Shown here: piece by piece, positions 4,429 through 55,144 of the stretch
Layout of the letters: every line of letters starts with the position of its first letter
How positions within the stretch are numbered: position 1 is the stretch's first letter
Notes under the pieces: generated by a model
What the model was told of the DNA's origin: nothing
The model's database searches: none
The model's input: the letters and a program-made list of their open reading frames with translations, nothing else
Made by a program: the position numbers and the translations under genes
NCBI GenBank assembly: GCA_034231615.1
Contig: CM067318.1
Span: forward strand, 36,117,382-36,181,381
DNA: 64,000 nucleotides
From: Meghimatium bilineatum
Lineage: Eukaryota; Mollusca; Gastropoda; Stylommatophora; Philomycidae
Direction of reading: 5' to 3'

Positions 4429-4565
4429 TTACATAATTCTTACATCATGAATAGCTAATTCCTCAGCTTGTTCTGCTGATGGCATGCCATCTCTAGCTTG
4501 GTTGTCATCATCGTCAGATGAGTCTTCATCTGATGAATTTCTGTTGCCTTCTGCAAAAACAGCAT
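4429..4565 (-). CDS. PLEKHF2: PLEKHF coding exon 8 (acidic tail, probable last exon)
   Basis: Encodes residues 225-269: [19 protein letters not shown], then a variable stretch ending HDVRIM and a TAA at 4429-4431. The acceptor is CTGTTTTCAG and the phase fits exon 7. A Ser/Asp-rich tail is a family feature. The bases CATGAT|GTAAGA near the end also form a good donor, so the protein may continue in an exon at lower coordinates. I could not find such an exon, so this C-terminus is tentative. Confidence 0.85.

Positions 4566-55144: not shown

Follow-up and report, generated by a model that had tools for sequence, protein, structure and literature searches.

Phafins bind phosphatidylinositol 3-phosphate (PtdIns(3)P) through a PH and a FYVE domain (PMC10178739). 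Human Phafin2 (PLEKHF2, 249 residues) carries its PH domain ahead of the FYVE domain, with a KXn(K/R)XR motif at residues 49-53 and an acidic C-terminal motif that restrains the PH domain (PMC9324892), and its listed motifs are a basic KPKAR at 49-53, WxxD, RRHHCR and RVC (PMC5368057). Human Phafin1 (PLEKHF1, 279 residues) has PH, FYVE and acidic motif followed by a 27-residue tail (PMC9324892), while Rush hour of Drosophila is an invertebrate homologue whose FYVE domain binds endosomal PtdIns(3)P (PMC10178739). A literature search for PLEKHF2 and molluscs returned a sea urchin phosphoproteome only and no mollusc study. Here we describe what is very probably the PLEKHF gene of the slug Meghimatium bilineatum, found in a 64,000-nucleotide (nt) window, the whole stretch of DNA analysed (contig C21, positions 36117382-36181381, in a genome of 1.612 Gb and 32 contigs); coordinates below are those of the window.

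The locus runs on the minus strand from 55144 to 4429 (50,716 bp), where eight exons with a summed length of 810 nt join into 269 codons and a stop (Table 1), leaving 98.4% of the locus noncoding. All seven acceptors are AG, six of the seven donors are GT and the remaining one, at intron 2, is GC. Intron 6 lies inside the RRHHCR motif, and repeats internal to the window overlap none of the exons. Using a possibly inexact human PLEKHF2 sequence as a tblastn query against the window, we obtained six collinear minus-strand pieces corresponding to exons 2-7 (E 5e-24 to 1.3e-4), the next best among the matches listed having E 0.79; exons 1 and 8 were placed by phase, splice signals and local similarity. 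An initial annotation, made from the letters alone, had described eight small exons joining in phase between these same two ends, a 16-base first exon 26 kb from the second, a complete 269-residue PH-FYVE protein of the PLEKHF family and a locus that is about 98 percent intron, and had proposed the tblastn comparison with the minus strand as a check; all of this was borne out. We are highly confident that the locus is a PLEKHF (Phafin) gene of eight exons predicted to encode a PH-FYVE protein, most likely of 269 residues, a confidence that covers identity and anatomy and stops short of the exact C-terminus.

Table 1. Exons and introns of the predicted PLEKHF gene and the transposable element in intron 2.
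Feature	Position	Strand	Length	Content
Exon 1	55144-55129	-	16 nt	MVDRL plus one base; donor gtaagt
Exon 2	29074-29010	-	65 nt	Residues 6-27; acceptor ttttctgtag, donor GCAAGT
Exon 3	20532-20395	-	138 nt	Residues 28-73; PH domain, KAKPR motif
Exon 4	17758-17695	-	64 nt	PH domain
Exon 5	16893-16768	-	126 nt	End of PH domain
Exon 6	8827-8718	-	110 nt	Linker and start of FYVE; WVPD; ends between RR and HHCR
Exon 7	6947-6794	-	154 nt	Remainder of FYVE; HHCR, RVC
Exon 8	4565-4429	-	137 nt	Includes stop; acidic run, 24-residue tail
Intron 1	29075-55128	-	26,054 nt	
Intron 2	20533-29009	-	8,477 nt	GC-AG; donor gcaagt at 29009-29004
Introns 3-7		-	2,636, 801, 7,940, 1,770, 2,228 nt (in order)	
Long interspersed nuclear element (LINE)	21636-25691	-	4,056 bp	Sense to PLEKHF; endonuclease, reverse transcriptase, RNase H (Pfam)

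The domain content of the predicted protein matches this assignment, both domains exceeding their Pfam cut-offs. The PH domain is N-terminal (PF00169, residues 39-130, E 4.7e-11, 43.6 bits against a cut-off of 25.1) and the FYVE domain covers residues 150-213 (PF01363, E 5e-20); the six Pfam rows at E <= 0.001 are all PH-type or FYVE, with no RhoGEF, FERM or other domain among them. The motifs reported for Phafin2 have their counterparts in KAKPR (49-53), WVPD (150-153), RRHHCR (172-177) and RVC (203-205). Identity to the same human PLEKHF2 sequence is 141 of 214 aligned positions over the first 215 residues, and 150 of 248 over the whole alignment, which starts at residue 1 and extends as far as the acidic run. 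The sequence matched 24 solved-structure sequences, none of them named Phafin or PLEKHF, and the best was FGD5 (3mpx, 5.4e-16), which is a PH-FYVE protein. With human Phafin2 the slug protein shares the order of its domains, the basic motif at the same residues, an acidic C-terminal motif and a Met-Val-Asp start (PMC9324892, PMC5368057). It differs at the C-terminus, where the ten-residue acidic motif of the human protein is purer (PMC9324892); conditional on exon 8, the slug protein has a run at residues 234-245 that is acidic at 7 of 12 positions and interrupted by serines, then 24 extra residues. Phafin1 and Rush hour are likened to it by description.

Several points weigh against the model. 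Exon 1 is below the length that a homology search requires, its support being MVDRL, phase and donor; the donor assigned to intron 2 is GC, which is uncommon; exon 8 is only weakly similar to human and holds an internal candidate donor (gtaaga, first base 4443); and the human sequence used may be inexact, having RIC where PMC5368057 names RVC. The GC donor was retained because the GT-AG alternatives cost conserved residues: the three GT-AG pairs that preserve the frame at intron 2 and lie no more than 30 nt away would all remove or alter such residues. GC-AG introns make up 0.983% of animal introns (PMC7072748, Table 1), so that one among seven is uncommon yet ordinary. The very large introns with their transposons might instead suggest a decayed pseudogene or an unspliced remnant, the working copy lying elsewhere. 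However, the 269 codons are open when joined, the splice sites are intact and the motifs are retained, and a protein search of the genome, in which all 42 first-look candidates were scored, revealed no second PLEKHF and no retrocopy in 1.61 Gb. This search proceeds exon by exon, exon 1 being too short for it, and gave 29 matches at E <= 0.01: seven correspond to exons 2-8 here, and the remaining 22, elsewhere in the genome and 33-56% identical, are confined to portions of residues 129-218, none of them reaching the PH part. (A profile search of the genome gave 36 FYVE family matches.) An intact PLEKHF elsewhere had been named beforehand as the finding that would overturn the assignment, and the matches outside this locus proved to be FYVE-only. 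Given the unbroken frame and the outcome of the genome search, we reject a pseudogene or retrocopy and consider it extremely improbable; the locus is probably an ordinary, working Phafin gene.

It could also be that exons 2-8 are genuine and exon 1 is a chance match, the start codon residing in another exon or farther upstream, since 16 nt are beyond the reach of homology search, 26 kb separate exons 1 and 2, and further frame-keeping GT-AG pairs are present near junction 1. Yet MVDRL followed by V-NSE across this junction fits the human start, which we take to be MVDRLANSE. Met-Val-Asp itself is in print, the N-terminus of human Phafin2 having been sequenced as these three residues after two vector residues (PMC5368057); a literature text search did not return the N-terminal letters of human Phafin2. 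Moreover, a degenerate pattern for MVDRL, one further base and a GT donor occurs once on the minus strand of the window and nowhere on its plus strand, with 0.0033 occurrences expected per 64-kb strand from shuffled sequence (1 match in 300 shuffles). We hold a chance exon 1 to be very unlikely. A wrong C-terminus is less remote, though still unlikely: the gtaaga at 4443 matches the donor consensus, 14 nt before the stop codon ends, and could splice exon 8 to another exon, perhaps outside the window. Against this, the two acceptors that pass a pyrimidine-tract filter up to the window end each add three residues and then a stop, and AATAAA follows the in-frame stop at 2737, 1521, 1517, 196 and 136, the nearest 1.7 kb off. 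Under the same filter we found no convincing terminal exon for donor 4443 inside the window.

With the modelled exon 8, the C-terminus bears modestly on the time of origin of the Phafin acidic motif. Because one gene in a genome that does not look vertebrate has both motif and tail, the motif may predate the split of Phafin1 and Phafin2. We tentatively, and with more doubt than conviction, suggest that the acidic motif and the tail are ancestral to animal Phafins; Phafin2 would then have dropped the tail, and flies and worms the acidic motif. Against such an ancestry, the comparison uses a single genome with a predicted exon 8, and the polyD motif is given in PMC9324892 as absent from fly, worm, vase tunicate and some fish and bird Phafins. 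Rush hour contrasts with the protein described here, which carries the acidic run, whereas the fly protein is without polyD (PMC9324892).

By analogy with Phafin2 and Rush hour, the protein would attach to endosomal PtdIns(3)P by its FYVE zinc finger together with its PH domain and would regulate endosome traffic and autophagy; its PH domain could be held back by the acidic C-terminal run, as in Phafin2. Transcription most likely begins upstream of 55144, and the transcript would be spliced by the ordinary spliceosome, the GC-AG intron included. The exact 5' and 3' ends are predictions from sequence, and the mRNA ends, together with exons 1 and 8, form the least secure portion of the model. 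The ratio of observed to expected CpG is 0.82-0.87 at 55001-55750, around exon 1, compared with 0.51 window-wide; we regard this rise as weak evidence of a promoter, adjacent windows ranging from 0.32 to 1.72. The gene's chief interest is as an example of how an ordinary animal gene can be recovered complete from raw sequence despite a first coding exon of 16 nt lying 26 kb off, which escapes methods built on open frames.

We compared the length of the locus with that of Cpn60/TCP1 chaperonin genes in the same genome. The family gave 51 matches, of which 47 were used; the four left out have long open frames (two adjacent on contig C24 spanning 1.5 kb, one on C25 and one on C11) and speak for compact genes also existing in this genome. 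One of the 47 was isolated, and the other 46, grouped at a spacing below 60 kb, formed nine genes. These span 13.9-49.5 kb (median 20.4 kb), as lower limits for gene length, and the 37 gaps between their pieces, which are upper limits for introns since exons may be missed, have a median of 3.7 kb and a maximum of 18.8 kb, with eight over 8 kb. The chaperonin genes share with PLEKHF an anatomy of many small exons and long introns. At 50.7 kb PLEKHF just exceeds their range, for a smaller protein, and this is mainly due to the single 26-kb intron 1, which exceeds every one of the 37 gaps in the control genes. First introns are known to be long as a general rule (according to a reference title in PMC7222433). 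The size of the locus is, in our judgement, high but ordinary for a large, repeat-rich genome, and less remarkable than the initial annotation had rated it.

The introns had also been called mostly transposon debris. Repeats and a LINE are indeed present in them; 'mostly' is plausible and only partly demonstrated by the shares that we could assign. Repeats internal to the window account for 16.5% of the locus and the LINE of intron 2 for about 8%. Sampling 6,001 bp of intron 1 revealed genomic repeats over some 1.35 kb or more (query positions 910-1078, 2285-3223 and 5099-5341), a lower bound from scoring the best 40 of 17,183 first-look candidates.

Between stops, the LINE itself reads open for 1305 codons (25588-21671), and it is flanked by a 12-bp target-site duplication (21624-21635 and 25692-25703). 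A 3,918-bp query from it was searched against the genome, scoring the best 38 of 3,008 first-look candidates, so that less alike members fall outside the survey; all 38 matches (the window copy and 37 others) are full or near-full length at a rounded 100% identity. At the four loci examined, including that of the window, the 5' end is common, the 11-12-bp duplications differ from copy to copy, and the three others are 99.70-99.83% identical to the window copy. This points to a young element whose family was recently amplified in the genome.

Across the window, a tRNA scan run with the bacterial code found no genes, and Rfam gave no match at its gathering score. A dispersed family of ~280 bp, 83-91% identical and in both orientations, occurs at 7278-7560, 13400-13676, 28679-28958, 54220-54504 and 60121-60399. 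A repeat of about 580-610 bp is present in three copies that are 86-90% identical (3439-4018, 37771-38363 and 46823-47418); its frames look retrotransposon-like by eye, and the two copies tested gave no Pfam match. Tandem arrays repeat about every 50 bp at 9526-10048, 44 bp at 31340-31674 and 74 bp at 48581-48953, and stretches of (AT)n lie at 38380-38522 and 56270-56528. Beyond the 5' end of the gene, a fold-back-like stretch of 418 bp (63193-63610) shows 84.6% identity with its reverse complement, and a reverse transcriptase fragment is found on the minus strand at 61386-61802 (Pfam RVT_1, E 6.9e-10).
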